Shown: one piece after another, positions 2 to 46,823 of the stretch
How the letters are laid out: each line of letters begins with the position of its first letter
Numbering within the stretch: position 1 is the first letter of the stretch
DNA from: Candidatus Soleaferrea massiliensis AP7
Lineage (GTDB): Bacteria; Bacillota; Clostridia; Oscillospirales; Ruminococcaceae
DNA: 64,000 nt
Assembly: GCF_000820765.1 (NCBI RefSeq)
Contig: NZ_CCYH01000029.1
Location: forward strand, 62,001-126,000
Reading direction: 5' to 3'
Notes under the pieces: model-generated
What the model saw: the letters and a program-made list of their open reading frames with translations, nothing else
Database searches by the model: none
What the model was told of the DNA's origin: nothing
Made by a program: the position numbers and the translations under genes

Positions 2-5221
<5,220 letters not shown>

Positions 5222-19687: not shown

Positions 19688-22600
19688 ATGAGAAAGAGAA
19701 AAGGGCTGTCGTTCTTTCTAGCGGCGGTGATGCTTCTGACCAGCATCGCCCTGCAGCCGCTGGCCGCTTCAGCCGAAGAAGATGCTGCCGCGATCGTGCT
19801 GGAAGACCCTCTTCGAAACCAATCCTTCAACAGCGACTGGAGATTTTACAAGACCACGGATTTTTCCGAGGATCACTCCGCACAGCATGCGGATGATTCC
19901 GATTGGGAAACCGTCGATCTGCCGCACGATTGGCTGATCGAGCAGGTCAAGGACCTCTATCAGACCTCCTGCGGATGGTACCGCAAAACCTTCTACATCC
20001 CGCAGGATAAGCGGGGCAAACGGATCAAAATCCGTTTTGACGGCGTCTACCAGGATTCCACCATCTATGTCAACGGCCGGGAAGCGGGCGGATGGGGCTA
20101 CGGCTACACCACCTTTGAGGTGGACATCACCGATTTTGTCCGCTATGGCAACGAGCCGAACAACATCACCGTGCGGGTGGACCACCGTTCCAGGAACACG
20201 AGATGGTACACCGGCGCGGGCATCTACCGCAACGTCTGGATCAGCTATCTGGAGGACACCCATGTCGACTTCAACGGCACCTATCTGAGCAACGACGGAA
20301 AAGGCGGCAATCTGGACATCAAAACCGAAATCCTGAACGAATCCAATGAGATGCGGGAAATCACGCTCCGGCAGACCGTTTACGACGCAGACGGCCGGCC
20401 GGTGGCGGAACAGCTCAGCGATCCGGTCAGTATCCCAGCTCGAGAGCAAAAAGCCGTTTCACAGGCGCTGAAGGTGGAAAACCCGCGCCTGTGGGGAATC
20501 GACGATCCGTACCTGTACCGGGTCAAAACCGAGATTCTGCGGCAGGGGCAGGTCGTCGACACGTACCAGAGCACGACCGGATTCCGATCCATCCGGGTGG
20601 ACCCGGACGAGGGCTTTTATCTGAACGACGCGTATATGAAGCTCAACGGCGTCTGCCTGCATCACGACCAGGGGGCGCTCGGCACCGCGATCAATCTAGC
20701 GGCGCAGCGCCGGGAACTGCGCATCATGAAGGAGATGGGCGTCAACGCCGTCCGCACCTCGCACAACATGCCCGCGCCGGAGTTTCTGCAGCTCTGCGAC
20801 GAGATGGGCATCATGGTGATGGTGGAGAGCTTCGACACCTGGTATGAGGGCAAGAACACCTATGACTACCACATCTTCTACGACGAATGGATTGAACGGG
20901 ATGTGCGCAGCTGGATTCGGCGGGACCGCAACCATCCTTCGGCGATCATGTGGTCGGTTGCGAACGAGATTCCCGAGATGCCCAACGACGGCGGTCCGGG
21001 CGGACGGGCCGAAACCGAGCTTCAGCGCATCAACGGCTGGATTCGCGAGGAGGACCCAAACGGCAACGCGCTGCTCACCTTCGCGACCAACGCGCTCGGC
21101 AACGCGAATACGCAGAATCTGGGCCAATACGAGCAGGCCGTCGGCATGAACTACGGCATCGGCTCCGCGGCGGGCATCCACAGCAGGCATCCGGGCTGGG
21201 CGATCTACGCTTCCGAATCCGCGTCGGCGGTGCGGTCCAGAGGCATCTACCATCCGCCCGCGGATGTGCCCGTCGCCAGCAATTCGGACGACCAGCAGGT
21301 CTCCAGCTACGACAACGCCAAGGTGCCGTGGGGCAACTTCGCGGAGGAGGCTTGGCGGTTCAACCGGGACAACAAGTGGTTCCTCGGCGAATTCGTCTGG
21401 ACCGGCTTCGACTATATCGGCGAGCCGGCGCCGTACGCCTCGAAAAACGCCTATTTCGGCATCGTCGATATGACCGGCATCCCGAAGGACATCTACTACT
21501 TCTATCAATCGGTCTGGACAGAGGAACCGATGGTGCATCTGCTGCCGCACTGGGACTGGAACGAGGGCGAAACCGTCTCGGTCTGGGCCTATTCCAACGC
21601 CGCATCGGTCGAGCTGTTTCTCAACGGGAACTCACTGGGCAGGCAGGCGGTCGATCTCAAGACCGCCGAGGTCATGCACTATGCCTGGGAGGTTCCATAC
21701 CAGCAGGGCGAGCTTGTCGCCATCGGCCGCGATGAAAACGGGAATGAAATCGCGCGCGACGCCGTTTCCTCCTTCTCCGACCCGGCTTCGCTGGTTCTGA
21801 ATCCCGACCGCGGCACGATCAAGGCGGATGGGAAGGACATCTCCTTTGTGGAGGTCAGCACGCGCGACGCGGATGGAAACTTCGTCGCGAACGCGACCAA
21901 CCGCGTCGAGATCAAGGTCGAGGGGGCCGGCGAGCTGGTCGCCTACGATAACGGCAGCTCCCCGGACAACGACTCGTTCCAGAGCGCCGCGAGAAGGCTC
22001 TTCTCCGGCAAGGCGATGGCGTACATCCGTTCGGACGGCACCGGCGGTCCAATCACGGTCACCGCATCCTCGCCGGGCCTTTCCCCCACGACCGTGACGC
22101 TCCATGCCGTGCATGAAAAACCGGTGCGGTCCATGGCGCTGGACGGCATCGACGGCATCCGGGACATCCATGAACCGGGCGGCACCCTGAAGATGGTTCC
22201 GGCGCTCTCCCCCGCTGTCCCGGACTTTGACAAGGTCTCCTACGCGGTCACTGAGCCGGATGGCTCCGCAACCGACAAAGCGTCCATCGACGAATACGGC
22301 GTGCTGAAAGCCAACAAGAACGGCACGGTGCGCGTGACGGCGACGGCCAGGGACGGTTCGGGCGTCTCCGCGTTCCGGGATGTCGAGATTTCCGGACAGG
22401 ACGGCTTCACACCAGTGTCCGCCATCACCATCAGCGGCGCGGACACGGTCGACCGGATGAACGGCAAGGCCGTGTTCACGGCGTCGGTCCAGCCGGCTCA
22501 AGCCTGCCAGGATATTGTCTGGAGCGTCTATGACGAATCCGGCAGCGCGGTCAGCCCCGCATCCATCAAGCAGGACGGCACGCTGATGGGCCTGCATGAC

Positions 22601-28479: not shown

Positions 28480-30552
28480 ATGAAACTCCAAAATAAAGTT
28501 CTGATTGTAGACGATTCTGAGCTGAACCGTTCTTTGCTTGCAGATATGCTCCGTGATGAATATGAAATCTTAGAGGCCGATAACGGGCTGCAGGCAGTAA
28601 AGCTTTTGGAATTTCATCAATTTGAGATTTCATTGGTCCTGCTTGACATTGTCATGCCGGAGATGGATGGGTTTGAGGTGCTGGCAATGATGAATAAAAA
28701 CAAATGGATCGAGCGAATCCCGGTCATCATCATTTCAGCAGAAACAACGGCTTCTTATATCGATGCCGCTTATGATTTAGGCGCAACCGAGTATGTCAAC
28801 CGTCCTTTTGATCCCAAAACGATCAGACGGCGTGTTTCCAACACCATTATGCTTTATTCCAAGCAGAAGTTCCTTGAAAATGCAGTCACAGAACAGGTGT
28901 TGGAAAAAGAAAAAAGCAATCTTATTATGGTTGAGGTTTTAAGCCACATTGTAGAGTTTCGTAACGGCGAGAGCGGAATGCATGTCCTTAACATCCGCAC
29001 TATCACGGAAATGCTGCTGAAACAGCTCTGCGCTTTAAGCAGCCAATACCGTTATCTTCAATCCCAAATTTTATTGATTTCAAACGCATCGTCATTGCAT
29101 GATATTGGTAAAATTTCGATTGCTGAGCAAATTTTAAATAAACCCGGCAAACTCACCTTTGAAGAGTACGAGAAGATCAAAGAGCACAGCGGTATCGGCG
29201 CAAACATGCTGGAAAAAACTCGATATTATCCCAATGAAGAGATCGTGCGGATCGCAAGGGATATTTGCCGGTGGCACCACGAGCGGTATGACGGCAAGGG
29301 TTATCCGGATGGTCTGGCAGGCGATGAAATCCCCATTGAGGCACAGGTGGTTTCCCTTGCGGACGTGTATGACGCTTTGACCCACAAGCGTGTTTATAAG
29401 GAAGCCTATTCGCACCAGAAAGCTTTTGAGATGATTTACAGCGGGCAATGCGGTGCGTTCAATCCGTTGCTGCTCCAATGCTTGAAAGATATCGGCCCTA
29501 TGCTGGAACGGGAGCTGAAACACCGTTCGCTTGGCTATGTTACAAAAGAAGAGATCAAAGAAATAACCCGAACCATCCTGCAAAGCGGAGAGGCTTCCAA
29601 TCGCACATTGGCCCTATTGGAACAGGAACGCATTAAATATCAATTTATTGCTGAAATGTCGAAAGAAATTCTTTTTGAGTATACATATCCAACTGATATT
29701 CTGACTCTATCGGAAGAGGGTGCTGTTCAGCTTGGATTGCCAGAAATCATAGTTAATCTGAAAGAGGACAGGCTGTTTCAACAGGTTATGAAAGCTGAGG
29801 ACTATCAAGATCTGCGCAACAAGCTTCGATGCGCATCGCCAAGCAAACCTACAATTTCGGAAAACTACTGCCTGTGTGTCAAGGGGCAGTGGCGATGGTA
29901 CAAAATTATAGCCCGCCCGCTCTGGCTGGGGAATAATACGAATGCAGTTACAGGAGCCATTGGAAAATGTACAGACATTCATGCGGAAATTACGGAACTG
30001 GAGCTTTTGAAGAAAACAGCGCATATTGATGATGTAACAGGTTTATACCGCAGAAACTTTGCCCGCACTAAAATCAGGGAAATTCTTGAAAAAGAATATT
30101 CCTCGAACAAAAAATATGCACTTATGCTGTTCGACTTGGATTTCTTTAAAAACGCGAATGATCTGTATGGACATATGTTTGGAGACCAAGTACTGCGTGA
30201 AGCAGCACAAAAAGTCCAAAAATCGGTACGAAACTCAGATATTATTGCCAGGATCGGCGGAGATGAATTTTTGATTTTTGTGGAATATAAGAATGATATC
30301 ACGCCGGTGGCTGAACGCATTTTTCAATCGATCGGCGGAATGTACCAAGATTTTTATATTCGTGCGAGTATGGGGGTTTCGCTCGCTCCCACTCACGCAG
30401 CAGAATATGAAGATTTATTTCATTGCGCAGACCAGGCTCTTTATGCCGCAAAGCACAAAGGACGGAATTGCTATTGTATTTACGACAATTCCATGGACAG
30501 CTTTTTGTCCGTCCTATCAGAAGAAACGCCTTATGAGGAAAAAATGAGATGA
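28480..30552 (+). CDS. Response regulator with HD-GYP, PAS-like and GGDEF domains
   Basis: A 690-residue cytoplasmic output protein for c-di-GMP. Residues 1-125 are a receiver with acidic pocket (LIVDDSE) and phosphoacceptor Asp near 56 (LLDIVMP). Residues about 145-340 are an HD-GYP phosphodiesterase: HD in SLHDIGK, and the full signature HHERYDGKGYP near 265. A PAS-like segment follows (about 385-500). The C-terminal GGDEF domain (about 505-670) has an intact GGDEF near 593, with an inhibitory RxxD (RNSD) five residues before it. The protein thus pairs an intact synthase with an intact hydrolase domain under one receiver. It is 16 bp after the Hpt gene and overlaps the GntR gene by 4 bp (ATGA). 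Confidence 0.92.
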   Translation: MKLQNKVLIVDDSELNRSLLADMLRDEYEILEADNGLQAVKLLEFHQFEISLVLLDIVMPEMDGFEVLAMMNKNKWIERIPVIIISAETTASYIDAAYDLGATEYVNRPFDPKTIRRRVSNTIMLYSKQKFLENAVTEQVLEKEKSNLIMVEVLSHIVEFRNGESGMHVLNIRTITEMLLKQLCALSSQYRYLQSQILLISNASSLHDIGKISIAEQILNKPGKLTFEEYEKIKEHSGIGANMLEKTRYYPNEEIVRIARDICRWHHERYDGKGYPDGLAGDEIPIEAQVVSLADVYDALTHKRVYKEAYSHQKAFEMIYSGQCGAFNPLLLQCLKDIGPMLERELKHRSLGYVTKEEIKEITRTILQSGEASNRTLALLEQERIKYQFIAEMSKEILFEYTYPTDILTLSEEGAVQLGLPEIIVNLKEDRLFQQVMKAEDYQDLRNKLRCASPSKPTISENYCLCVKGQWRWYKIIARPLWLGNNTNAVTGAIGKCTDIHAEITELELLKKTAHIDDVTGLYRRNFARTKIREILEKEYSSNKKYALMLFDLDFFKNANDLYGHMFGDQVLREAAQKVQKSVRNSDIIARIGGDEFLIFVEYKNDITPVAERIFQSIGGMYQDFYIRASMGVSLAPTHAAEYEDLFHCADQALYAAKHKGRNCYCIYDNSMDSFLSVLSEETPYEEKMR

Positions 30553-32018
30553 AATATGATAAATTTCAATATGACAGGATATTTGAGATTATAAAGAACA
30601 AAATCGAATCCGGACTGATGCCGAAAGGTACGGTACTTCCCTCCTATGCCGCCCTTTGCAGGGAATACAAAGTATCCAACAAAACAATACGCCGTGTGGT
30701 GGCCATGCTGTCTGACGCAGGACTCATTGAGACAAAAGAACGACAGCTTTCTGTGGTTATTTTTGAACAAGCGGACCCGGAAAGCGATTCAGCACACAAT
30801 TTGAAAAAGCCAAATATCCCCGTCATGACAGACATCTTAAAAACGGCGGAAATTCTTTACTATCCTTTTATATGCCACGGAATTTCTCTGTGCGACAAGT
30901 TCGATTGGGATATCCCCGAAAAAATTGTTCAGCAATTGAATCCGGAAACACCAAAACTCTTTTGGAAAAACTCTAAACTGATCTGGCGTTTTTTCATCGC
31001 CAGATGCGAAAACGAGCTGAGCCTTCATATCGTTGATGCGCTTGGCTTTCTAGGAGTCGAATATAGGGAAAACAACTTTTGTTCACGCGTCACATATCAG
31101 CAGACACTCATGGATTTTATTCAAAAAAGCAGAATAGCGGCGCCTGAAAGCAGCGTCGTCAAAGATTTTCTTGCGTATATCCACTTTATTACAATTTCAA
31201 GGGAAGATTTTCAATGTTATGTTCCTGCCGATTCGCCCTTTCGCATCGGTGTTCAGGGACTTGATCAGTGGATGAAAACAGCGGAAGAGCGCTATTCCAG
31301 CGTATACCTGGATATTTTGGGGCTTATCTCTATCGGTTATTATCAGCCTGGAGACAAGCTGCCTTCTCACGCCCAGATGCAGAAGCAGTATGGCGTCAGC
31401 GTAAACACGACGACGCAGGCGATTCAATGTCTGCAGAAATGGGGCATTGTAGAGGCAACCCGAGGAAAGGGAATTTTTGTCTCTACGAATATAGAGACGT
31501 TAAACGATATTCATGTGGACCCGAAGTTAATTGCCAGCCATCTCAGAAGATATTTCGAGTGCTTGGAGCTGCTTTCCCTTACCATAGAGGGAGTGGCATA
31601 CCATGTTGCGGCTCATGTTTCTTATGAGCAAATTCAAACATTAATTCAGCGATTAGACGAAGCGAAAAAATACAGCAGTTTATACCAACCGGCGCCTGTT
31701 GTTTTGCTGGAATTTTTAACAGAGCATATTCCATTTGATGCTCTGCAATCGGTCTATAGGATTATACTCAAAAACTATCGAATCGGCCGAAAAATACCTA
31801 AACTAATAAACAAGTCCAACGCATCCGGAAAACTGGAAATCCATCGCAAGTGTGCAGCAGCGGCAAACGTATTGCTCGGCGGGGATCAAAACGCATTTGC
31901 AAAACAAGCCGCGGAGATGTTCCAGTATACCCATCAACTCATCATCGAAGAGTGTAAAAGGCTGGGCTACTGGAAGACGGTTAAGGATATATATGACGGC
32001 TCTCAGTTGTGGAAATAG
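30549..32018 (+). CDS. GntR-type regulator with two winged-helix domains
   Basis: A 489-residue transcription factor. The first GntR wHTH is at residues 1-75 (MPKGTVLPSYAALCREYKVSNKT). A middle region of about 160 residues follows. A second complete GntR wHTH lies at about 240-320 (YQPGDKLPSHAQMQKQYGVS, then RGKGIFV), and about 170 C-terminal helical residues end the protein. GntR proteins normally have one HTH, so an internal duplication is likely. The C-terminal part does not clearly match FCD or UTRA. Its start overlaps the stop of the c-di-GMP gene (ATGA), implying coupled translation and a role in the same signalling system. Confidence 0.85.
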   Translation: MKYDKFQYDRIFEIIKNKIESGLMPKGTVLPSYAALCREYKVSNKTIRRVVAMLSDAGLIETKERQLSVVIFEQADPESDSAHNLKKPNIPVMTDILKTAEILYYPFICHGISLCDKFDWDIPEKIVQQLNPETPKLFWKNSKLIWRFFIARCENELSLHIVDALGFLGVEYRENNFCSRVTYQQTLMDFIQKSRIAAPESSVVKDFLAYIHFITISREDFQCYVPADSPFRIGVQGLDQWMKTAEERYSSVYLDILGLISIGYYQPGDKLPSHAQMQKQYGVSVNTTTQAIQCLQKWGIVEATRGKGIFVSTNIETLNDIHVDPKLIASHLRRYFECLELLSLTIEGVAYHVAAHVSYEQIQTLIQRLDEAKKYSSLYQPAPVVLLEFLTEHIPFDALQSVYRIILKNYRIGRKIPKLINKSNASGKLEIHRKCAAAANVLLGGDQNAFAKQAAEMFQYTHQLIIEECKRLGYWKTVKDIYDGSQLWK

Positions 32019-32096
32019 TATTGATACTACAATTTTAATAAATAAATCGACCGGTACTTGCAGTGCCATTCTATGCCGAGGGGGGCGGGAACCAAA

Positions 32097-34229
32097 ATGA
32101 AAAGAGAAATGAATGGCAAGACAAAAAATGTCGGAGCGGAAATTCTGCCGCGTCTCAGGCAAATAACCATTCTGCTGGCGTTTCTGCTCATCTCCGAGAT
32201 CTTTTTGTTTACCGCTACATATCGTCATTTAAACCAGTCCATTCAAAATGAGCGGATCGACTCCATCGAGCAGATGAGTACCCTCATTTCGGAAAAGCTG
32301 TTTTTGCTGAGACAGCATTATGAGGATAAGGTACGGCAGGCGGCCTGCGTCATCATGAGCAGCCACATCCAGTCGCTGGATCAGGGGCAGGAGCTGCTTA
32401 CGGCCTTTGAGCAGTTATACCTGCTGGCTGAGGACGGCTCCTGTATCTCCTTGACAGGAGAAAAAATCGTACTGTCCGAATCGGAAGAAACCAAGAAACT
32501 TAAAATTTCGGATGAGGTTCGGACGGATTTCTGTACGGTACAGACCAAAGGTGATTTTTGGGTTTTTATGTCCCCGCTTTCCAATGTAACCATAGATAAT
32601 AAAGAGTACTTTGGCGTTATCATGCTGGTGGACTCAAACACCTACGCAGAGATTGCAGCCACTGCCCTGTATGAGAATCAGGGCGCTTCCTATGTGGTGA
32701 ATCAGCTGGGCGTGATCGAGCTGCGGCCAACTGATTCAACCGCCAACGACTATTTTGGCGGATATAACCTGCTCCATACCTTGCGGGAAAAGAAGGTGGA
32801 CGAGCAACAGATCCTTGCGCTGCAGCAGGGACTGGAACAGCAGCATAAAGTGGAATTTATAACAAAAACAGATGGAGAAACCTGGCGTATTCAAAGCTTT
32901 CCGGAAAGTGAGGGCAACAGCATTGTATTGGCAATCCCTGTTTCCATTACAGCCCGAAAAACCTTTGAAGGAATGCAAAATGTTGTCGTTATGATCGTCC
33001 TTACCCTCTCAACCGTGGTGGCCATGGCTGTAGTTTGGATCTACTACTATGTGAAAAAAGGACAGCAAGTCAAGCTGGAGCAAGCAAAAGCCACCTTGAA
33101 GAGCGACTTCATGAACAAGGTCTCCCACGATATCCGCACACCGCTGACCGCCGTGATCGGGCTGAACGATCTGATGCTGCACAATGCGGGCGAACCGGAT
33201 ATCGTGGCCGACTGCGCGCAAAAAGCGAAAAAGTCCGGTGAATATCTCATCTCCATTATCAATGACGTATTGGATATGAGCCGCATCGAAAGCGGAAAGC
33301 TGCGAATTTCCCATGCGGTTTTTGATATGAAGGAGCTGCTGGAGACCGTTATTCAGCTGGAAACCTATCCCTCAGGCGAGAAGGCGCTGAACTTTCGTCT
33401 GGACTGTCCGGACAACTTCCACAGAGGATTCTTGGGAGACGCCGTCCGCATCAAGCAATGTCTCGTCAACTTGATTTCCAACGCCATCAAGTTTACCCCC
33501 GAGCAGGGGGACGTAACCCTTACTTACCGGGAAAACCCGGAAAGCGGCAGGTACACCAGGGCCTGCTTTACCGTCGAGGACACGGGGATCGGCATGAGCG
33601 AAGCGTTTATGCAGCAGATGTTCCATCCCTTTGAGCAGGAACAGTCCTCTCTCACCGCCGCCCATGTGGGCAGCGGTTTGGGGCTTGCGATTGTACACAG
33701 TCTTGTGACCCTGATGAACGGTACCATCCATGCGGAGAGCAAATTGAATCGAGGGAGCAGATTTGTCATAGAGCTTCCTCTGGAGCGAACCGAACTGAGT
33801 GAATCGGACCCGGAAGACGGGCGTACCGATGAACTGCCCGCATATCTGCTTGGCAAGAGGATCCTGTTGGCGGAAGATAACGAAATCAACCGCGAGATTG
33901 TCGCAGATCTTTTGGCCGGACTCGGCTTTGTGGTTGACGGGGCAGCCAACGGCACGGAGGCTGTGGAGCGCTTCAAAACCTCTTCCATGGGATATTATTC
34001 CATTATTTTGATGGACATCCAAATGCCGGTGATGAATGGTCTCGAGGCCGCCGCAGCCATTCGCGGCTCGGCTCACATGGACGCCCCAAGCATCCCCATC
34101 ATCGCCTTATCCGCAAACGCTTTTGAGGAGGATGTGGAAAAATCTCTTGCCCACGGAATGCAGGCCCATATCAGCAAGCCGGTAGATATAGAGATTATCA
34201 AAAAAACATTCATTAAATATATACATTGA
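32097..34229 (+). CDS. Membrane hybrid histidine kinase with extracytoplasmic sensor and receiver
   Basis: A sensor kinase of 710 residues. The ATG at 32097 is chosen over 32058 because a GGGGGGCGGGA site lies just before it. TM1 (about 22-42), an extracellular Cache-like sensor (about 43-295) and TM2 (about 297-320) are followed by HisKA with H343 (SHDIRTPL), HATPase with N-box (NAIKFTP) and G-box (DTGIGM), and a C-terminal receiver with D640 (LMDIQMP). The receiver needs an Hpt partner, and one is encoded at the start of this operon. The next gene, 13 bp on, encodes a solute-binding lipoprotein that may present ligand to this sensor; that link is inferred from position. Confidence 0.92.
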   Translation: MKREMNGKTKNVGAEILPRLRQITILLAFLLISEIFLFTATYRHLNQSIQNERIDSIEQMSTLISEKLFLLRQHYEDKVRQAACVIMSSHIQSLDQGQELLTAFEQLYLLAEDGSCISLTGEKIVLSESEETKKLKISDEVRTDFCTVQTKGDFWVFMSPLSNVTIDNKEYFGVIMLVDSNTYAEIAATALYENQGASYVVNQLGVIELRPTDSTANDYFGGYNLLHTLREKKVDEQQILALQQGLEQQHKVEFITKTDGETWRIQSFPESEGNSIVLAIPVSITARKTFEGMQNVVVMIVLTLSTVVAMAVVWIYYYVKKGQQVKLEQAKATLKSDFMNKVSHDIRTPLTAVIGLNDLMLHNAGEPDIVADCAQKAKKSGEYLISIINDVLDMSRIESGKLRISHAVFDMKELLETVIQLETYPSGEKALNFRLDCPDNFHRGFLGDAVRIKQCLVNLISNAIKFTPEQGDVTLTYRENPESGRYTRACFTVEDTGIGMSEAFMQQMFHPFEQEQSSLTAAHVGSGLGLAIVHSLVTLMNGTIHAESKLNRGSRFVIELPLERTELSESDPEDGRTDELPAYLLGKRILLAEDNEINREIVADLLAGLGFVVDGAANGTEAVERFKTSSMGYYSIILMDIQMPVMNGLEAAAAIRGSAHMDAPSIPIIALSANAFEEDVEKSLAHGMQAHISKPVDIEIIKKTFIKYIH

Positions 34230-34242
34230 GGAGGAGGTCCAT

Positions 34243-36108
34243 GTGAAGAAACAGAAACTGTTGATCTTATTTTTGGCAGGCGCCATGCTGTTGGGAATGG
34301 CCGGCTGCGCCGATGCGCCGCACAAAATCCAGACGTCGGCGTTGTTCTGCGCGGACAATGAGATTTTGACCTATGAGCCGGTGAATTTTGATAAAACGGT
34401 TATCACCATTGGTACATACGCGCCCTGCAGCGCGAAGCCGGTGGAGCTTGCCATCGAAACGGAATTTCCTGACGTCGACATCGTTGTTCTGGATCAGGCC
34501 AGCATTCCCGACATCCAGAAGCATGTGAAAAATCCCCAGATACAGGGGGATTTGGAGGATATTATTTTTACAGGCGCTATAAAAGATGTAGAAATAAACA
34601 GCAATATTTTTTACGATCTGTCAGCGGAGGATTTCACCTCCCGGTACAATCGATCCACACTGAACGACTTGAGCTCCGATGGGAAGCTCTACCAGCTTCC
34701 TATTAACAGCTCGGTCCAGGGAATCTTTTACAATAAAGATCTATTTGAGGCTCATGGATGGGAAATTCCGGAAACGATCGATGCATTTTACGCCCTGTGC
34801 GATGAAATTTCCGCCGAAGGCATCCGCCCCTTCGTGCCCTGCTTTAAGTATTCCATGGATGGGGTCGGACTGGGGTTCAGCAACCGCACCGTCTTTTCCT
34901 CCGAGGAAAAACGGGAGCAGTATGACCTGTTTTGTAACGGTCAAGCCTCCTGTAAGGGCGTGCTGGAGCCGTATTTTGCGGCACACAAAAAACTCTATGA
35001 CCGCGGGATCGTTGTGGAGGAGGACTTCTCTTCCAGCTTGACGAAAAACCGCCATGCCCTTTACGCAGGCGAGATCGCCATGCTGCCGGAACAATTAACC
35101 ATGTTTTCCCTGTATGAGGACGAACAGCCGGCGTGTGAAATCGGCTTTTTCGGCTACCCAACCGACACCCCCGGGGAACGCTGGATGCAGATGTCTCCTG
35201 GGCGCAGTATGGCGCTGTCAAAAGCGTCCATGGAGGACGCCGATAAAAAACAGATACTGCTGGATATCTTTGCGTTTCTCAGCACTGACAAAGGTCAGGA
35301 GGCTTTGCTGGAGGTCTTTTCGGGGCTGAGCAGCGTAAAATCCGTTCAGGCAAATTTGAATGAAGCGTATTGGGATATACAAAATTGTATTGAGAATGGG
35401 CAAATCTTTTTCGCAGACAGAATTGGGAATGATCTTCATAACCAAACAATGAAAGAATATTTAGCAGACAATCTGACAATGGAACAGGTCATTGCCGAAA
35501 CGGACGCCATGTATGAAAAAATCTCAGCTGCTCAGAAGCCGGAGGAGTCCATCGGAACGGCTGCGGAGGAATTTACGATTCTGGAAACCAGCAGCTTTAT
35601 CGCCGACGCCATGCGTTCCGCCACCGGGGCGGAGATCGCTCTCATTCCCCACTGCACTTATTACAAAGGGAATTTTGCAAAATTCTATGAAGGCGGGGTG
35701 ACCATGCTGTACCGCTTCTACCTGCGTGGCTTGGACACCGAAGACTACCTGACCACCTATGAGATCACCGGTGCAGATTTAAAGGCTCTCATGGAGCATC
35801 CTATTATCAACGGTGAGGAGATCAACGCCATGTACGCGTTTTCCGGCCTTGCCATGGAATATGCTCCCTGGCGGGACAAGAATGAAAATGTCATCAAGCT
35901 GTCCTTGGCCGATGGCAGTGAGATCGAAGACGGCAAGGTTTATACCGTGGCCGCCTGGGAGACCTCCATTGACGAATCGTACATTGTTTCCACCGTGAAC
36001 GTCCATAGTGAGGCCGGCAGTAATATTGATCTGGTTTCTGCTGCCGTTAGACAGGCAGGGACCATCTCTCCGGCAAAGGATCATCGGCTTACACTGCGAT
36101 GGGATTAA
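34243..36108 (+). CDS. Lipoprotein fusing solute-binding protein fold to 5'-nucleotidase C-terminal domain
   Basis: A 621-residue exported lipoprotein. The start is GTG at 34243 with GAGGAGG upstream; the ATG two bases before is followed directly by a stop. A signal peptide with lipobox MAGC places Cys near 21. Residues about 45-430 resemble an ABC sugar-binding protein (family 1 type: YNKDLFEAHGWEIPET, MSPGRSMALSK). Residues about 445-620 resemble the 5'-nucleotidase C-terminal domain (SFIADAMRSATGAEIALI, TYEITGADLKALMEHP, KVYTVAAWE), without the metallophosphoesterase catalytic domain. It therefore probably binds a ligand, perhaps a nucleoside or sugar, rather than hydrolysing it. No transporter permease is nearby. 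Its place between two hybrid kinases suggests a sensory role. Confidence 0.82.
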   Translation: MKKQKLLILFLAGAMLLGMAGCADAPHKIQTSALFCADNEILTYEPVNFDKTVITIGTYAPCSAKPVELAIETEFPDVDIVVLDQASIPDIQKHVKNPQIQGDLEDIIFTGAIKDVEINSNIFYDLSAEDFTSRYNRSTLNDLSSDGKLYQLPINSSVQGIFYNKDLFEAHGWEIPETIDAFYALCDEISAEGIRPFVPCFKYSMDGVGLGFSNRTVFSSEEKREQYDLFCNGQASCKGVLEPYFAAHKKLYDRGIVVEEDFSSSLTKNRHALYAGEIAMLPEQLTMFSLYEDEQPACEIGFFGYPTDTPGERWMQMSPGRSMALSKASMEDADKKQILLDIFAFLSTDKGQEALLEVFSGLSSVKSVQANLNEAYWDIQNCIENGQIFFADRIGNDLHNQTMKEYLADNLTMEQVIAETDAMYEKISAAQKPEESIGTAAEEFTILETSSFIADAMRSATGAEIALIPHCTYYKGNFAKFYEGGVTMLYRFYLRGLDTEDYLTTYEITGADLKALMEHPIINGEEINAMYAFSGLAMEYAPWRDKNENVIKLSLADGSEIEDGKVYTVAAWETSIDESYIVSTVNVHSEAGSNIDLVSAAVRQAGTISPAKDHRLTLRWD

Positions 36109-36185: not shown

Positions 36186-38996
36186 ATGAAACATTCTATA
36201 AATCAGTCAAAAAAACATAGTATGAAAGTTTTTACTGTGGTGGTATTGCTTGCTATTCTGCTTTCAAGTGCCGTTTCGGTTTCCGCCGCGGAAGAACAGC
36301 CTATCCGGCTTCGTATCCCATTTCCGGAAGCGGAAGGCTTTACTATGACCGACGAAAACGGGAAACGCTACGGTCTGGTGGTAGATTATCTGTATGAAAT
36401 CGCAAAATACACCGGTTGGTCCTACGAATTCATTGATACCGACGCCAACGACATGACGGGGGAGTTTATTGCCGGTAAATATGACCTTATGGGCGGCACA
36501 TACTATTCAGAGACTTTTGAAAAATACTTTGCCTACCCGGATTACAGCTGCGGCAATACCAAAGCGGTACTGCTGGCCCGCCAGGATAATGAAGACATTA
36601 AAGGTTATGATTTAAGGGATTTGAATGGAAAAACCATAGGCGTTGTGGCACGGGCAACCGATAATGTGCGCCGGCTGGAGGAGTACCTCTCTGTCAATGG
36701 CCTGGACTACACACTCAAACCATATACCTCCGAAGAAGTAGCCGCCAATCAAATCAACCTGGATTTGGAAACCGGGAAAATCGACCTGAAACTTGGAAAT
36801 GCGACGGATGATACAGGTGAGTTTCGTGCGGTAGCGTACTTCGATGCACAGCCTCATTATCTGGTTGCGCAGCCGGACAACAAGGAACTGCTTGACCAGC
36901 TGAATTGGGCAATGGAGCGTATTCTGTTATCGGATCCCCACTTTTCGGAAGAAGTATATAATCGATATTTTGATGATACAGGTGTGGAAAACCTGCTGCT
37001 CACCGAGGAAGAAAAAGCCTATATTGAACAGAAGGGCACAGTGACTGTGGCGGTCCCCGATTATTTTCATCCGCTTTATTGTATTGGTTACGAAGATGGT
37101 GACCATGTTGGCCTGGTTCCGGAACTGCTGAAAAAAATAACCGTGCGATATGGGATTGAGTTTTCCTACATATTGACAGACTCCTATGCCCATGCTCAAC
37201 AACTCGTTCTCGAAGGCAAAGCCGATATGGCCGGCATTTTTTTTGATGATGCCGCGGATGCCATGCGGGAGGAATTGGCGCAAACCAAGCCCTATGCCGC
37301 ATTAAATGACTTAATTGTACGCAACCGAGCTGTGACCTATCCGGAGGACGGATTAACCTGCGGCCTTTTAGAAGGCCGTCAACTGCCCTCGTATGTAAAA
37401 GCAAGCGAAGTAACGTATTTTAAGACCATTGAAGAAGTTTTGTCTGCGGTGAATACCGGTAAGGTGGATTTTGCCTGCGGGCTTTCTGCACGGGTGGAAC
37501 AGATGATGCAGGACAACATTTATACCAACGTGGTTCCCGTTACCTTATCAGCAAACCGCATGAGCATCAGCTTTGCTATGCCCATGCCCGCAAATCCTGA
37601 GCTGCTGTCCATCATTAACAAAGGTATTAACAGCTTATCCGATGATGACAGGAATTCTCTTTTAGATCATAATCTGGTCTCTATCGGAGACGTTAAGATA
37701 TCACTGAAAAATTTTATGGAGACCAATCCCATTTTATCAATCGTCGTTATATCAACTTTTTTACTGCTCGTCACAATGGTGATTATTATAATATCCAATA
37801 TGCGTGTAAAGAATGCCAATATGCAAAAAAACATTGCAAAAGCAGAGGCGGATAACAAAGCAAAAAGTGCATTTCTTTCCCGAATGAGCCACGAAATCCG
37901 TACGCCGATGAACGCCATCGTTGGGACGACCGCCCTCATCGCAATGAAAGATGATGTCCCCGAAAGCATAAAAGGAAATTTGGCAAAGCTGAACGCAACT
38001 TCACAGTATTTATTGGGGCTGATCAATGATATTTTAGATATGAGCCGAATTGATAACGGTATGCTTTCAATTGCAGATGAAGACTTCTCCTTACAGCAAC
38101 TGCTTGATGAACTTTGCAGCATGATGCAAACGCAGGCACAGGCGCGGGAAATAGCGCTTTGCTGTGAAACAAATTTCAAGCATTCTGATTTAAAAGGTGA
38201 TGCGATCCGATTAAAGCAAGTTTTGATGAACCTGGTTTCAAATGCCATAAAATTTACTCCGCCGGGAGGAACCGTACATCTGACTGTGGAAGAAACCACA
38301 GCCTCTGACCAGCAAGCCGCCTATTTGTTTAAGGTCTCCGATACCGGCATCGGCATCAAAGCCGAGGATTTAGATCGCATTTTTGAATCCTTCGAACAGG
38401 CTGGAGCCAATCAAATGCGCAGCCAAGGGACTGGGCTGGGCTTACCGATCAGCCGGAACATTGTACAACTCATGGGCGGCACTTTGAAGGTGAAAAGCAA
38501 GATAAATGTGGGCAGCGAATTTTTCTTTTCCATTCCTCTTTCCTTTGGGAAACCCATAGAATTCAAAACACCGCATGCGCCTTCTGTCCATTTTGAAAAT
38601 GTACGGATTCTGCTGGCCGAAGATAACCCAATAAATGCAGAAATCGCTATGGAAATTTTGGCCTTAAAAGGAATGCAGATAGAGCTTGCCGAGGATGGAG
38701 TAAAGGCAGTCAATTGCTTTGAGCAAAGTACCACCGGCTATTATGATCTTATTTTAATGGATATGAGGATGCCTAACATGGGAGGTTTAGAAGCAACAAA
38801 GGCTATTCGAGCTTCAGCCCATTCCGATGCAGTAAAAATCCCCATTATCGCCCTAACCGCCAACTGTTTCCAGGAAGATCGAGATATGGCAAGAGATGCG
38901 GGTATGGATGATTTCCTTACAAAGCCATTGGAGATTGACCTGCTCTATGCTGTACTTCAGAAGTGGCTATCAAATAAAAACGAAAAATCCAAGTAA
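36186..38996 (+). CDS. BvgS-like hybrid histidine kinase with two periplasmic-binding-protein domains
   Basis: A sensor kinase of 936 residues. A signal/TM segment lies at about 14-35, then two SBP family-3 (amino-acid-binding-type) domains in tandem (about 38-270 and 280-500), TM2 (about 515-537), HisKA with H568 (MSHEIRTPMN), HATPase (NAIKFTPPGG, SDTGIGI) and a receiver with D859 (LMDMRMP). There is no internal Hpt domain, unlike BvgS, so the free Hpt at 28107 is the natural partner. TAGGAG precedes the ATG. It is last in the operon and is followed by a terminator-like hairpin. The ligand is unknown; SBP-3 domains typically bind amino acids or small polar molecules. Confidence 0.92.
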   Translation: MKHSINQSKKHSMKVFTVVVLLAILLSSAVSVSAAEEQPIRLRIPFPEAEGFTMTDENGKRYGLVVDYLYEIAKYTGWSYEFIDTDANDMTGEFIAGKYDLMGGTYYSETFEKYFAYPDYSCGNTKAVLLARQDNEDIKGYDLRDLNGKTIGVVARATDNVRRLEEYLSVNGLDYTLKPYTSEEVAANQINLDLETGKIDLKLGNATDDTGEFRAVAYFDAQPHYLVAQPDNKELLDQLNWAMERILLSDPHFSEEVYNRYFDDTGVENLLLTEEEKAYIEQKGTVTVAVPDYFHPLYCIGYEDGDHVGLVPELLKKITVRYGIEFSYILTDSYAHAQQLVLEGKADMAGIFFDDAADAMREELAQTKPYAALNDLIVRNRAVTYPEDGLTCGLLEGRQLPSYVKASEVTYFKTIEEVLSAVNTGKVDFACGLSARVEQMMQDNIYTNVVPVTLSANRMSISFAMPMPANPELLSIINKGINSLSDDDRNSLLDHNLVSIGDVKISLKNFMETNPILSIVVISTFLLLVTMVIIIISNMRVKNANMQKNIAKAEADNKAKSAFLSRMSHEIRTPMNAIVGTTALIAMKDDVPESIKGNLAKLNATSQYLLGLINDILDMSRIDNGMLSIADEDFSLQQLLDELCSMMQTQAQAREIALCCETNFKHSDLKGDAIRLKQVLMNLVSNAIKFTPPGGTVHLTVEETTASDQQAAYLFKVSDTGIGIKAEDLDRIFESFEQAGANQMRSQGTGLGLPISRNIVQLMGGTLKVKSKINVGSEFFFSIPLSFGKPIEFKTPHAPSVHFENVRILLAEDNPINAEIAMEILALKGMQIELAEDGVKAVNCFEQSTTGYYDLILMDMRMPNMGGLEATKAIRASAHSDAVKIPIIALTANCFQEDRDMARDAGMDDFLTKPLEIDLLYAVLQKWLSNKNEKSK

Positions 38997-40822: not shown

Positions 40823-43800
40823 TCACAAAGTGCCTTTTTCACTAAGTTTGTTTTTGGCCTTCAATAGTGGCCGGACGAACGTAAAATCGCAGACATCACC
40901 ATTGTCGTTGATATAGAACACGGTTAGAATTTCACATGGACCACATTTTTCAGCAGCCGAGTCCAGTCGCTCTCCATAAAAACTAACGCTTGTTTCTCCT
41001 TCCTTATAGGCTTTTAATAACGCTTCCCTAGACATTGTCTTCATAGCCTCTTCTTGACAATCTGGATGTAGTAATTTTTTTACAGCTTCAAGAAAATCAT
41101 CATAGTTATCATTCTTAAGAGCAATTGATGCTATATATTCACCTGCTTCCATGAGGGAATATCGATTGCAACTTAGGTTAACGGAGAATATCAGTGGATA
41201 ATATGTAGCAATTGCACCAACCATTTTGCTCAACTCACCTATATTCGTTGTTGCACCATCCATTGGTAATGTCGAGTGACCTTGATACAGGTAATTTTCT
41301 TTCTCCATTTCAGGAGAGTAGAAGGCATAATCATTTTTTCCATGGCGCTTTACATGATATAATGCGGTATCCGCCTTTTTGTAAAGAGTAGAGAAGTCGT
41401 CTACACCGGTTTTACCAAGTACTGCCCCGATACTACAATGCATGGATTGTTCATCTTTTTCTCCAATGACAATAGAAGACAGCTTACGCAGTAAAGACGA
41501 TAGAGAATTTTTCAGGCCTTCTTCGCCTGAAGCATTTGGTAGAAAGATGAGGAATTCATCGCCTCCAATTCTGCCTATTATATCCGAATGCCTAAAATGT
41601 CCGAGTAAGATATCCCCAATCGCACGCAGTGCCCTGTCACCTTCGTTATGACCCAGCGTGTCATTGATTGTTTTTAAATCATCCAGATCAAGAACTAAAA
41701 GAACGCAGTAATTCCCTCCTCGCAGCAATTTTTCCTGAACACGAGCCTCTACGGTAGAACGATTATAGAGCCTGGTCAGACCATCACGTTGGGCGCGAAT
41801 AATAAGATCGTCTTCTTTGAGTTTATCTATTGTTACGTCATCCATATAAATCGTGGCGGTAACTGGCTTTCCATCTCCGCCCAATGCTAAGAAATAGCGA
41901 GCCTTTAACCAAACTGTATTATTTCCGGATGCCCGTCTCTCGAAGATCCATTCTCCTTCACATGGATTTCCAGCGAGAATGTTTCTGTAAAAATCGAGGT
42001 ATGTTTCCGTACTATCTTGCGAAATATATGAGTGTGCTATTACACTGTCAGGCACATTCTCGACAACTGCTGGCAGGCCCAGCAGTTGTCGCATCTTCTC
42101 TGGCAGATAAGCGGTTTTGCTTGAAATATTATATGTGTAGATAAGACGATCCGTGTTCTCGACTACAAGTCGGTAGCTCTCCTGACTGACGCGCAACTCA
42201 TCAATGAGATTATGACGTTCGGTGTTATCAAGGTATGTTGTAATATATCCGACGTTCCCTTTGCTATCCACAAAACGCGCTCCGTTTGCAGAGAGCCAAA
42301 TGAGTTCACCATCTTTTTTCACAATACGATATTCAAACGAATAGTGGTCGGGACGATTATCATACACTTCACGCATTTTTTTTGTTATCATATCGACATC
42401 TTCAGAATAGACCGCACCACTGATTCCGCATTGTATAAAAGATAAAATTTCCTCATGATTATAACCGAGTTTCCTGGGTAAATTACCTATCATAATCGGA
42501 GGAAGCCCCCCAGTTTGATAACGCAAGATAATCATCTCTGGGCTGAACCGATCAATCAGCTCACAGAAATAAAGGCTCTGCGTTAGTTCATCAGATGTAG
42601 CTTTTAAAGCGGATTTGAGCGCTGCTTCATTTTTTTTCTGATTATCAATAATACGGAACAATGTGATTTCCAGGACATCATCGTCGTAGGGGTTGTTCAC
42701 ACGCAATACAATGGTTTCAACCCAATGCAATACTCCATCGTCTCCTACCTGCCGATGTTCCAGCCTTACCGTATTCTTTCCCTGCCCAAAGGCATCAAGT
42801 AAATTCTGGCGAGAAAAAGTAGTGCGAAATGCTTTTTTATCTTCCTCTTGTATAGTTTTAATAATATCCTCAACAAACTGGTCATAAACACCATGTTCGG
42901 CCATCTTTTTTACAAAGAAGGTATCACTTTCAAGTATATGATAGTTGTTTTGCGTCAGATTTACAGCAATCGACAAGGGATATTCAATGCTGATAGCCTT
43001 ATATATCCCAGCAAATCCAAACGCTTTATTTTTATCAAGTATGCGTTCGTCCGTAACTTCTTTACAGGTCACAATAGCGGAAACAGGTTTATTGTCTTGA
43101 CCAAATACACTATTGAACTCCATGCGGAACCAACAATATTCACTATCTTTTCCTTTTGTACGACACTCGGCAGTACCCACCCTGTCACCACACTCGATCC
43201 GGTTAAAGAAATCTAACCATTTATCCACGCTCTCTGAAGCCACAATGCCAGCGCTTACAAAATAATTTGGTGCGTCCGGGAGTGAAGTGGGAATTCCGAA
43301 CATCGTGGCAGTTTCCTCCGACAATTCCATGCAATGGTCGGCTATAAGATACCGATAAATCATTCTATCGCTAAATTTTACGGCGGTTTGGTATTCTTCC
43401 TCTCGTATCCGCAAAGCATCCTGTGCACGGTGTTGTTCAGTTACATCAAAAATCTGTGCATAGGCGCGCATCACACAGTCTTCGCCGCGTACTGACCTAA
43501 GAGTATCCATAGCATATCGGACACTTCCGTTTTGATGCAGAAAACGGTATTCGATGGTCATAGTCTGTGGCTGTTCTCTCAGATGATTTAAGGCTGATCT
43601 TACATATTCCCGATCTTCTGATAAAACTATTGCAAGGGGGTCAGCTTTCGTGAGATCGCGAAAATCCTCGTAGCTGTACCCGTTCATTCGGAGTGTCCCC
43701 TCGCTGATAAACTCCAGATACATAGGTGCATCAAGCCGCCAACGACATACGCCACCGGGAGCATTTTCCATAACTTGATTAAGCTCAGTTTCTGACGCCA

Positions 43801-46759
43801 ATCGAAGTTCTTCCGCTGATTTTCTGAAGGTTATATCGGTATAGATGCCGTAAAAGTATAGATTATCACCGTCTAATACGACGGGGTTTGCAATTAAATT
43901 GACCCAGCGGATCCCGCCAGCTTTGGATAAAACACGCATATCAAAATTGAAGCGCTGCCGGGACCTTGTAGCCGCAGCAACAGCTATTCTCAATTTAGCA
44001 AAGTCATCGGGATGGACGCGTGACATAGCATCATTCATATCAAGGGATGGACGGTCATCCTCGGTGTATCCGAGGATGCGATAGGCTCCTTCGCTGAGGT
44101 AGGTGCGGTGGACTTTGCCGTTCATATACCGAAACACAGCCAGACCACTGGGTATGGAATTGATAATAGTTTGTATCTCCGTTTTATCACGCGCTAAGCT
44201 GGCCTCCAACCGCTTTTGTTCCGTGATGTCAATCATCACCGTAGTCACTACCACACCGTCGCCTTCACGTTTTAGAATCACAGCATTCATCTGCACCCAA
44301 CGATAGGATGCATCCTTACAGATATGACGAAATGTAATGGAGCCTGTGTCTGACCGTGACGTACCGTTAAGGACACTATCTGTCACCTCCAGAATTTTTG
44401 CTGTATCTTCTGGATGAATCGCATTTTTTATGCCACCTTTATACAAGTTTGGGTATTCGTCTAACGTATATCCAAACATCGTGGCAGCAACCTCGTTAAA
44501 GTACAACAACTCTGTTCCATTCGGGAATATCCTAATATCTTGCACTGCTCCAGGGATACTGTTGACAAGAACAGTGAGCTGCTCTGTCAGTTCACTGTTG
44601 TGTATCTCCAGCTTTTTGCGCTTCGTTACATTTTCAATGTAATGATAAAAAATGTAGCTTCCAGCCTTTTCTGCGAGGCAGCGCACCCTGCAATAGGTCC
44701 ATATAGGTTCCCCTCCTTCTACCAGGGGGTAGGAATAAATGGTACAATCGGCTTCATCATCTGTCCGGATTGCTGTCTCCAGCATTTCGATGAAGACAGA
44801 ACGCTGGTCTGGTGGAAAGCGGTCTTGGATATGATATTGCCAGGTTCGAAATGATTGCCGGGTAGCCCCCAGCTCTTTTAAAAATTTATCATTGATACGC
44901 AATGCCGCAATATTGCCTTTTTCATATTCCAAAATTACAGCACCACCCATAAACGTATTAAACAGTAAGGTGGCTTGAGCAGAGGTATTAAGAAAATCGA
45001 TAGAACCGTCAATACCTGGATGAAAGCGGCATTTGCCTTTATGGGTATCGTCATACTTTTCAATGAGCAGTTTCTCAAATTCCTCCACGGGGAGAGGTTT
45101 GGAAAAATAGTGGCCTTGCATAAAGAAGCAGCTTATGCTTTTCAGATATTCTGCATGTTGATATGTTTCAACCCCCTCCGCAATGACAGGGAGTTTAATG
45201 GAATGCGCCATGCGTACAATGGCACTAAGAATGTTACCGCCACGGTCGCTATCTATATCCTCAGCGATGAATTTCATATCAAGCTTGAGAATGTCCACCG
45301 GCACATCTTTCAGCATATTCAATGAGGAATACCCACTACCAAAATCATCCATCTCAATATGAAATCCGCATTTTTGTAGCTCCGCTACGATTCGAATAAG
45401 TTGTTTCGGATTTTCCATGTATGCAGATTCAGTAATTTCCAAATGTAACATATCTGGTGTAAGACGGTACTTTGACACTAAATCTTTAAATATATCAACA
45501 AGGTCAGGTAGATAAAAATCACGCCGTGAAACATTGACAGAGATGGAGGGAAGGGGTATTCCTTTATCGTGCCACTGTCGAATCTGTATGCAGACCCGTT
45601 CCCACATATATCGATCCATCTCACAGATAAATCCATTACGTTCAAATACAGGAATGAATTTCCCCGGTAAAAGTATACCCTTTTGTGGATGCAGCCAGCG
45701 TATTAAAGCCTCCGCACCAATGATGCCGCCAGTATCATAATTATACTGAGGTTGATAGTAGACGATAAACTCTCCATTAGAGAGCGCCTGTTTCATCGTA
45801 GAATCAATCTCTTGCTCCTCCACAATCTCCATGCGCATGGATTCGTCATACCATGCGTAATTTTTTCTATAGTTACCCTTAATGGAATTAAGGGCCATAA
45901 GAGCGCGATCACACATAACGCCTACATTAATAAGAGGACTCTCAACGCGATAGAGGCCAAGGCGGATTGAAAAGTTATAGTCAGGGTAGACTTGGCAAAG
46001 CTGCTCAAGCGTGTGTTCATAAAGTTTTTGTGCCTCGAGCTGGCTGGACGCCCAAAGAGAAACAAAGTGGTCGGCATCCCAATGTCCATAGGTTAATCCA
46101 CCGTGCAGACCGTTTCCTTTTTTGCTTTCCATATATTTTTCTCCGATGTCCAGAAGTAACTGGTCACCGGCTGCAACACCAAAAGTATCATTAAACACTT
46201 TGAAATTATCAATGTCCCATCGGGCAATCACGTATTCCCCGTCCGCATGTTCTTTCAAATATTTCTGTGTTTTACTACAAAATGACTCCTTGTTCCAAAT
46301 GCCAGTTTTCGGATCAATTTGCGAAATACGTGTCAACTCGGTACGCCACTTTGCTTCTTCCAACCGGCTGCTTTCTCTGATGGAGGAAAGAATATTTTCC
46401 ACACGATATTGAACGGTTTCCGGTTTATAGGGCTTTGTGATTACATCTATCGCACCCATTTGGAGCGCCTTATGCTGGCCCCGCATGTCGTCACAATTTG
46501 CTACAACCACCACAGGTATGCGGCGCATCGCCTGGCTTTTGCGTATCTTTTTTATGATGTTATAATCGTCTATGTCAGGGGTATTCATATCGAGAATTAC
46601 TATATCAACTTGAACTCCGCCACGTAACTGCTTCATTGTCTCTGCACAACTTTTTGTCTCAAGAACATGATACTTCTTATCAAAAATTCCTTTTAGAAGA
46701 AGGCGTGAATCCGTGTTGCCATCAACGATAAGCATTATCAAAGTATTAGTCACTTTCAT
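40823..46759 (-). CDS. Giant response regulator: REC, degenerate GGDEF, EAL, about eight PAS-like modules, GGDEF
   Basis: A cytoplasmic c-di-GMP protein of 1978 residues. The ATG at 46759 follows AGGAGG; a TTG start at 46783 is less likely. Order: receiver (1-125, phosphoacceptor in VILDMNTPD), degenerate GGDEF (about 150-295, GHWDADHF in place of GGDEF), intact EAL phosphodiesterase (about 320-575: GAEALIRW, NVSRRD, LEITES, DDFGSGYSSL, LKLDMKF, AEGVET), PAS-like modules (about 610-1640), and an active-type GGDEF near 1735 with an RHSD inhibitory site. After it comes a roughly 145-residue C-terminal module (YPLIFSVNLSCNRYSL) that resembles an internal one near 1270 (YPLSIAVNLTQNNYHIL). No TM segment is seen. 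The TetR gene and two palindromes upstream suggest its control. Confidence 0.92.
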   Translation of the reverse strand: MKVTNTLIMLIVDGNTDSRLLLKGIFDKKYHVLETKSCAETMKQLRGGVQVDIVILDMNTPDIDDYNIIKKIRKSQAMRRIPVVVVANCDDMRGQHKALQMGAIDVITKPYKPETVQYRVENILSSIRESSRLEEAKWRTELTRISQIDPKTGIWNKESFCSKTQKYLKEHADGEYVIARWDIDNFKVFNDTFGVAAGDQLLLDIGEKYMESKKGNGLHGGLTYGHWDADHFVSLWASSQLEAQKLYEHTLEQLCQVYPDYNFSIRLGLYRVESPLINVGVMCDRALMALNSIKGNYRKNYAWYDESMRMEIVEEQEIDSTMKQALSNGEFIVYYQPQYNYDTGGIIGAEALIRWLHPQKGILLPGKFIPVFERNGFICEMDRYMWERVCIQIRQWHDKGIPLPSISVNVSRRDFYLPDLVDIFKDLVSKYRLTPDMLHLEITESAYMENPKQLIRIVAELQKCGFHIEMDDFGSGYSSLNMLKDVPVDILKLDMKFIAEDIDSDRGGNILSAIVRMAHSIKLPVIAEGVETYQHAEYLKSISCFFMQGHYFSKPLPVEEFEKLLIEKYDDTHKGKCRFHPGIDGSIDFLNTSAQATLLFNTFMGGAVILEYEKGNIAALRINDKFLKELGATRQSFRTWQYHIQDRFPPDQRSVFIEMLETAIRTDDEADCTIYSYPLVEGGEPIWTYCRVRCLAEKAGSYIFYHYIENVTKRKKLEIHNSELTEQLTVLVNSIPGAVQDIRIFPNGTELLYFNEVAATMFGYTLDEYPNLYKGGIKNAIHPEDTAKILEVTDSVLNGTSRSDTGSITFRHICKDASYRWVQMNAVILKREGDGVVVTTVMIDITEQKRLEASLARDKTEIQTIINSIPSGLAVFRYMNGKVHRTYLSEGAYRILGYTEDDRPSLDMNDAMSRVHPDDFAKLRIAVAAATRSRQRFNFDMRVLSKAGGIRWVNLIANPVVLDGDNLYFYGIYTDITFRKSAEELRLASETELNQVMENAPGGVCRWRLDAPMYLEFISEGTLRMNGYSYEDFRDLTKADPLAIVLSEDREYVRSALNHLREQPQTMTIEYRFLHQNGSVRYAMDTLRSVRGEDCVMRAYAQIFDVTEQHRAQDALRIREEEYQTAVKFSDRMIYRYLIADHCMELSEETATMFGIPTSLPDAPNYFVSAGIVASESVDKWLDFFNRIECGDRVGTAECRTKGKDSEYCWFRMEFNSVFGQDNKPVSAIVTCKEVTDERILDKNKAFGFAGIYKAISIEYPLSIAVNLTQNNYHILESDTFFVKKMAEHGVYDQFVEDIIKTIQEEDKKAFRTTFSRQNLLDAFGQGKNTVRLEHRQVGDDGVLHWVETIVLRVNNPYDDDVLEITLFRIIDNQKKNEAALKSALKATSDELTQSLYFCELIDRFSPEMIILRYQTGGLPPIMIGNLPRKLGYNHEEILSFIQCGISGAVYSEDVDMITKKMREVYDNRPDHYSFEYRIVKKDGELIWLSANGARFVDSKGNVGYITTYLDNTERHNLIDELRVSQESYRLVVENTDRLIYTYNISSKTAYLPEKMRQLLGLPAVVENVPDSVIAHSYISQDSTETYLDFYRNILAGNPCEGEWIFERRASGNNTVWLKARYFLALGGDGKPVTATIYMDDVTIDKLKEDDLIIRAQRDGLTRLYNRSTVEARVQEKLLRGGNYCVLLVLDLDDLKTINDTLGHNEGDRALRAIGDILLGHFRHSDIIGRIGGDEFLIFLPNASGEEGLKNSLSSLLRKLSSIVIGEKDEQSMHCSIGAVLGKTGVDDFSTLYKKADTALYHVKRHGKNDYAFYSPEMEKENYLYQGHSTLPMDGATTNIGELSKMVGAIATYYPLIFSVNLSCNRYSLMEAGEYIASIALKNDNYDDFLEAVKKLLHPDCQEEAMKTMSREALLKAYKEGETSVSFYGERLDSAAEKCGPCEILTVFYINDNGDVCDFTFVRPLLKAKNKLSEKGTL

Positions 46760-46823
46760 AAATTTACCTCCTATTCTTTTCAATCCAGCATTCTAATGGC
46801 ATGCATACCAAAAACAAAACGTT

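Follow-up and report, generated by a model that had tools for sequence, protein, structure and literature searches.

A lipoprotein joining a solute-binding domain to a 5'-nucleotidase C-terminal domain, a probable co-receptor of the adjacent hybrid histidine kinase

The locus and the fusion protein

The window analyzed here is a 64,000-nucleotide stretch of contig NZ_CCYH01000029.1 from Candidatus Soleaferrea massiliensis AP7; coordinates without a locus label refer to it, and all genes in this paragraph lie on its forward strand. A response regulator of 690 aa with REC, HD(GYP) and GGDEF domains (28480-30552; open reading frame and Pfam), possibly with a c-di-GMP output, overlaps by 4 bp the gene of a 489-aa tandem-GntR regulator (30549-32018; Pfam and genome search), in which Pfam recognizes two GntR DNA-binding domains of the winged-helix type. 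This gene directly precedes that of a 723-aa hybrid histidine kinase (32058-34229), composed of a transmembrane helix, a 255-aa ectodomain (32220-32984), a second transmembrane helix and HisKA, HATPase and REC domains, as delineated by Pfam, hydropathy, alignment and an ectodomain model. After a gap of 13 bp follows the gene under study (34243-36108), encoding a lipoprotein of 621 aa, and 77 bp after it on the same strand lies a second hybrid histidine kinase with two SBP_bac_3 domains (36186-38996; Pfam).

The lipoprotein gene has a GTG start, and its ribosome-binding site, GAGGAGGAGG, located 5' of the start, overlaps the stop codon of the upstream kinase. The signal peptide extends to Cys22 (34243-34308); the lipobox was recognized by eye, and the cysteine is invariant in 14 of 14 aligned sequences. 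Residues 72-370 (34456-35352) form a solute-binding domain matched by SBP_bac_8 (1.8e-12) and SBP_bac_1 (1.9e-9), the two models scoring 48.1 and 38.4 bits against curated Pfam cut-offs of 27 and 26. The closest solved structures to this part are sugar-binding proteins (PDB 2hq0, 2.4e-13). Residues 449-572 (35587-35958) match positions 24-143 of the 158 in PF02872 (5_nucleotid_C) at 1.6e-11, with 45 bits against a cut-off of 23.6. No metallophosphoesterase family appears among the Pfam matches of the protein at E up to 1, and no NCBIfam model matches it at its cut-off. The first-pass annotation, made from the letters and translations, had read the N-terminal part as resembling an ABC sugar-binding protein and the C-terminal part as the 5'-nucleotidase specificity domain lacking its metallophosphoesterase partner, and all three points are borne out by these searches.

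A profile of the window-type C-terminal domain also matches the solved nucleotidase 3ivd (2.6e-8). Homology of this domain rests on profiles because both AlphaFold2 models are of low confidence (mean pLDDT 31.2 for the full fusion with two SBP relatives, 32.0 for the C-terminal 199 residues alone); these profiles speak against the refuting condition of the first-pass annotation, a missing match of residues 445-620 to the fold of the 5'-nucleotidase domain. Within its own genome the whole fusion protein has no second match at E up to 0.001, and PF02872 is found in two proteins, the fusion (48.2 bits) and one ordinary 5'-nucleotidase in which both domains are present, with the usual motifs by eye. 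The fusion of a solute-binding domain to a 5'-nucleotidase C-terminal domain without the catalytic part is thus real.

Distribution, descent and the nucleotide site

A profile search found matches covering both domains in at least 15 of the 197 genomes of the bacterial family, with up to six candidates scored per genome, and in at least 17 of the 394 genomes of the order, with up to three scored, one match (G417) being in two pieces. In a phylum-wide sample of 398 genomes, three reached E values of 1e-60 or lower, namely the genome of the window, another of its family, and one from outside the order (G891). A contig scan for relatives of the fusion returned only two, L002 and L003, both matching the solute-binding part, and patterns of the single fusion protein had no match on viral contigs. 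Altogether 34 complete fusions from 28 genomes were read (32 plus two at locus L125), leaving out a split gene (L095), a fragment (L104) and a gene cut by the contig end beside a kinase (L110). PF02872 is detected at E up to 0.01 in 29 of the 34 (11 of 14 full proteins and 18 of 20 C-terminal parts). The broken genes at L095 (2309-4349) and L104 (7899-8684) have no kinase seen adjoining, and the L104 fragment adjoins a transposase-like gene.

The six positions compared with the nucleotide site of UshA include R379, R410, N431 and D504, its nucleotide-contact residues besides the two stacking aromatics; these numbers agree with the UshA alignment of 1oi8 once the offset of 1ush is applied, the position of D504 being set by its motif. 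According to PMC7922932, PF02872 is the substrate-binding domain, and the base is stacked between Phe429 and Phe498 in UshA, with Tyr at both positions in CpdB. Equivalents of all six contacts (R379, R410, F429(Y), N431, F498(Y), D504) are kept in 10 of 32 fusions. None is kept in the window fusion and no more than two in any of the other 21, the alignment being loose in the diverged members. The ten site-keeping proteins retain 6/6 contacts in every case and carry Tyr at both stacking positions, the CpdB state. The window-type C-terminal domain aligns with those of the canonical clade at an hhalign probability of 98.8, and the three groups of C-terminal domain are homologous by profile comparison (probabilities 98.8, 96.2 and 98.0).

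In a tree of the solute-binding parts all 34 fusions fall together (support 90/87), and the ten with a canonical site form a clade (100/100). The window fusion groups on a long branch with those of L033, L034, L103 and L107 (100/99). The simplest reading is that the C-terminal domain was gained once and that the nucleotide site was kept in one clade. The C-terminal domain of the window fusion has no recognizable nucleotide site, and the suggestion in the first-pass annotation that it could sense nucleosides or nucleotides was rejected on this residue test. The sister clade, in which all six contacts are kept, may still sense nucleotides.

Pairing with histidine kinases

In 30 of the 34 complete fusions, namely 27 of the 32, the one at L038 and both at L125, the neighboring gene on the same strand encodes a histidine kinase. 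Across the 27 pairs the gap is between -65 and 115 bp, with a median of 1 bp and 24 of the pairs within 50 bp, and the kinase lies downstream of the fusion in 23 pairs and upstream in 4. With 22 HisKA matches exceeding the cut-off in the 3.1 Mb of the window's own genome, such adjacency is far above chance. The partner kinases are mostly hybrid, as a pattern scan found a REC motif in 25 of the 27 and a HATPase motif in 26. At L038 the kinase gene overlaps the last 4 bp of the fusion gene and runs off the end of the locus; at L125 the kinases stand 24 and 347 bp from the two fusions, the more distant one without a REC pattern. The first fusion at L099 is in tandem with a second, which precedes the kinase. 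The complete fusions at L097 and L103 have no kinase adjoining, and none follows the gene at L036, where the contig starts 32 bp before it; an ectodomain match is found elsewhere in the respective genomes (244 bits for L097, 94 bits for L103 and a weak 47 bits for L036).

According to a hydropathy scan, the partner kinases share a common layout of a transmembrane helix, about 250-275 aa outside, a second helix and the histidine box, and their ectodomains can be aligned across the family. dCache_1 is matched at E up to 1 in 19 of 27 ectodomains (best 2.4e-13), the window ectodomain has no Pfam match, and the L043 kinase reaches 28.2 bits for dCache, below the cut-off of 45; we therefore term the family dCache-like. 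An ectodomain model built from the other 26 kinases recognizes the upstream kinase of the window (79 bits; 1.6e-22 against a nominal 10000 sequences) and gives no match to the downstream one. On this leave-one-out result the downstream kinase was rejected as the partner; it is probably an independent sensor encoded within this run of genes. The first-pass annotation had pointed to both flanking kinases, of which only the upstream one carries the family ectodomain. Within the window's clade the kinase is upstream of the fusion at L033 and L107, downstream at L034 and not adjoining at L103. A second kinase beside a family kinase or its SBP was also observed at L114 (10564-12672), L115 (10315-12417) and L118 (7852-11076), as in the window (36186-38996); among these, Pfam confirms SBP_bac_3 domains only for those of the window and L118.

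Sugar-permease homologues are rare near the fusions. Of 32 fusion loci, some of them cut by contig ends, one has such a homologue within 7 kb, a single 21-bit match; the window gene has none in this range, in agreement with the earlier remark that no permease lies nearby. The same comparison found them at 5 of 5 loci of permease-type SBP-only relatives, three of which had supplied the six query permeases, so that L044 and L050 are the independent cases. These five relatives have no extra C-terminal domain, their matches ending at or before profile position 418. At the contig edge of L036 a purine-permease-like gene recognized by eye (2321-3661) starts 458 bp after the fusion gene.

Fusions and partner kinases have diverged together. 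Over 27 pairs, distances between ectodomains correlate with those between solute-binding parts (r = 0.88) and between C-terminal domains (r = 0.89), and in neither case did any of 5000 permutations give a value as high. Part of this is common descent, because kinase-core distances also correlate with the two parts (0.81 and 0.84, respectively); partial correlations given the kinase core are 0.62 for the solute-binding part and 0.61 for the C-terminal domain.

The ectodomain model has 66 matches in 46 of the 197 genomes of the bacterial family. Among the best 18 (213 bits or more), 12 of which are in the model by construction, 16 adjoin a fusion, one of these being a contig-end fragment; of the six outside the model (two in G189 and one each in G057, G170, G179 and G030), four do. 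Seventeen further ectodomain loci comprise two with fusions (L110 and L125), five with an SBP-only lipoprotein and ten without a lipoprotein of this kind. The ectodomain thus also works without such a neighbor; at three of the ten (L119, L121, L123) it belongs to a protein without similarity to kinases. The SBP-only lipoprotein adjoins a family kinase at L114-L117 and L120, no permease homologue was found near any of these five pairs, and Pfam finds no 5'-nucleotidase domain in the lipoproteins of L114 and L120. Because the ectodomain also pairs with SBPs lacking this domain, the fusion can be seen as an elaboration of SBP-coupled kinases, and the pairs at L114-L117 point to a wider family of these. 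Their SBP-only lipoproteins, free of permease homologues nearby, are located at L114 9225-10511, L115 8995-10269, L116 9615-10880 and L117 3317-4597.

Proposed role, alternatives and related systems

We propose that the fusion, anchored in the membrane, binds a ligand and acts as co-receptor of the adjacent upstream hybrid histidine kinase (32058-34229), a reading to which we give a probability of about 0.77. Its computed basis consists of the domains, the lipobox, the gene pairing, the rarity of transporter genes, the shared ectodomain and the co-divergence. The solute-binding domain would catch an extracellular solute, most likely a saccharide, and the loaded protein would dock on the dCache-like ectodomain of the kinase and alter its autophosphorylation. 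The phosphoryl signal might then pass through the REC domain of the kinase to the REC-HD-GGDEF regulator, changing c-di-GMP turnover, and perhaps to the tandem-GntR regulator. In the window protein the 5'-nucleotidase C-terminal domain may now serve as a docking or spacer domain. The dCache-like ectodomain could also sense alone. Of the earlier idea of a ligand receptor beside kinases, the receptor part is strengthened by the kinase adjacency (30/34), the near absence of permeases (1/32) and the correlated distances (r = 0.88), but its nucleotide ligand is not supported for this protein.

A plant-polysaccharide sugar is the natural guess for the ligand because four very large GH2/GH3 enzymes with carbohydrate-binding modules (29-5221, 6668-12097, 14717-19144 and 19646-25516; modules NPCBM, CBM6, CBM35 and GH43_C2) are encoded in the neighborhood; dockerin domains are present in three of them. 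The two GH3 proteins both have their C-terminal GH3 domain ahead of the N-terminal one.

Other explanations have to be weighed against the co-receptor. Orphan SBPs that use distant permeases are known, and the fold family is that of transport SBPs, so the fusion might feed an ABC permease encoded elsewhere; with permease homologues at one of 32 loci, a kinase adjoining 30 of 34 fusions and no extra C-terminal domain in the five permease-type relatives examined, this reading was rejected on gene context and we hold it to be very unlikely. It is unlikely, too, that the fusion is a nucleoside or nucleotide receptor whose C-terminal domain binds as in UshA while the kinase reports extracellular nucleotides. 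The substrate-binding nature of PF02872 (PMC7922932) and the six contacts of the sister clade (10/10, with CpdB-like Tyr/Tyr) speak for it; however, the window protein keeps none of them, 22 of 32 fusions lack the set and retain at most two within a loose alignment of the diverged members, and the fusion lacks the catalytic domain, which in UshA closes over the ligand.

The true partner might instead be the downstream kinase, or both kinases might be served. Its close position on the same strand, the SBP_bac_3 kinase beside a family kinase at L118 and the downstream placement of the kinase in most family members (23/27) are compatible with this, but the downstream kinase has two SBP_bac_3 domains of its own, escapes the partner-ectodomain model and has no counterpart at L033, a member of the window's clade where only the upstream kinase is present; we regard this arrangement as quite unlikely. 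That the fusion is a decaying enzyme fragment without function, as the lost nucleotide site and the two broken relatives (L095 and L104) might hint, is hardly credible given 34 complete open frames in 28 genomes with conserved gene pairing, lipobox and co-divergence. More tentatively, we speculate about a dual-input receptor, in which the SBP lobe would read a saccharide, and the C-terminal domain, recruited once from an ectonucleotidase, would read an extracellular nucleoside, 3'-nucleotide or cyclic dinucleotide in the site-keeping clade, one hybrid kinase integrating both; the window clade would have dropped the nucleotide input and kept the domain for kinase docking. If true, the kinase would join food supply with a signal of lysed or signaling neighbors.

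Signaling by an SBP through a kinase is already established in three-component systems. LuxPQ, TorTS and other SBP-coupled hybrid kinases combine a binding protein with a hybrid histidine kinase, as in the window; they differ in their SBP families and their Gram-negative periplasmic setting and are not known to carry PF02872. XylFII-LytS of Clostridium beijerinckii has another SBP type, a LytS-type kinase and no known nucleotidase domain, unlike the window fusion. It shares with our proposal a clostridial SBP that signals through a kinase ectodomain (cited in PMC10384115). Nearest in kind to the fusion/kinase module is CuaDSR of Ruminiclostridium cellulolyticum (PMC10384115), where the cellobiose-binding lipoprotein CuaD binds the ectodomain of the kinase CuaS in a two-hybrid test; a lipoprotein SBP can thus act as a kinase co-receptor. 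There, too, the gene of the sensing lipoprotein adjoins that of a membrane histidine kinase, the CuaS ectodomain has no predicted domain, and transport is served by another SBP. In contrast to the window system, the description of mature CuaD (about 410 aa) mentions nothing beyond an SBP, CuaS is reported to have HAMP and kinase domains and not to be a hybrid, and an AraC-type regulator of a transporter operon provides the output.

The C-terminal domain is homologous to that of the 5'-nucleotidases UshA, CpdB and CD73, but in the window fusion a solute-binding domain takes the place of the metallophosphoesterase and the nucleotide contacts are not kept. PF02872 also occurs in the extracellular receptor part of glutamate-family GPCRs of choanoflagellates and Capsaspora (PMC12716839, PMC3251606); these are eukaryotic seven-helix receptors, and nothing points to common descent of the architecture. 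A literature search, with most subscription journals outside its scope, found no description of the fusion, in line with the first-pass view that it is not a described family, and the main text of an SBP repertoire paper (PMC9602780) contains no words beginning with "nucleotid", "fused" or "fusion". New here are the 5'-nucleotidase C-terminal domain on an SBP, a whole family of such proteins, the dCache-like kinase as their usual partner and the tandem-GntR regulator.

The ligands of most sensor kinases are unknown. In the present case the protein presumed to bind the ligand is separate from the kinase, has a well-studied fold and is encoded in a stable gene pair, so that the input can be tested. 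Reuse of a nucleotidase specificity domain in a bacterial receptor is undescribed as far as literature searches show, and from the nucleotide site retained by one clade, sensing of extracellular nucleotides is predicted for that clade.

The tandem-GntR regulator provides a second lead, on output. Scoring up to eight candidates per genome in 197 genomes gave four matches at E up to 1e-25 in three genomes, the window copy included (30549-32018; L043 5049-6503; L110 3039-4493; L120 1805-3325). They are 484-506 aa long and align end to end, and L043 contains one further relative, a distant one (44 bits). Because all four sit at kinase/SBP modules, the protein is probably the transcription factor of the module; it contains no receiver domain, and a literature search for tandem GntR domains found nothing. 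The L120 copy belongs to a paralogous trio in the window's own genome (contig C25), together with a hybrid kinase bearing the family ectodomain and a 442-aa SBP-only lipoprotein. A full-length REC-HD-GGDEF relative stands beside few fusions, those of the window and of L037, where the domains come in another order and the gene follows fusion and kinase; a shorter one is present at L125. Further c-di-GMP signaling genes near the module encode a protein of 1986 aa in which REC-, GGDEF- and EAL-like sequence was recognized by eye (40823-46783) and an 855-aa REC/EAL/GGDEF protein (55791-58358).
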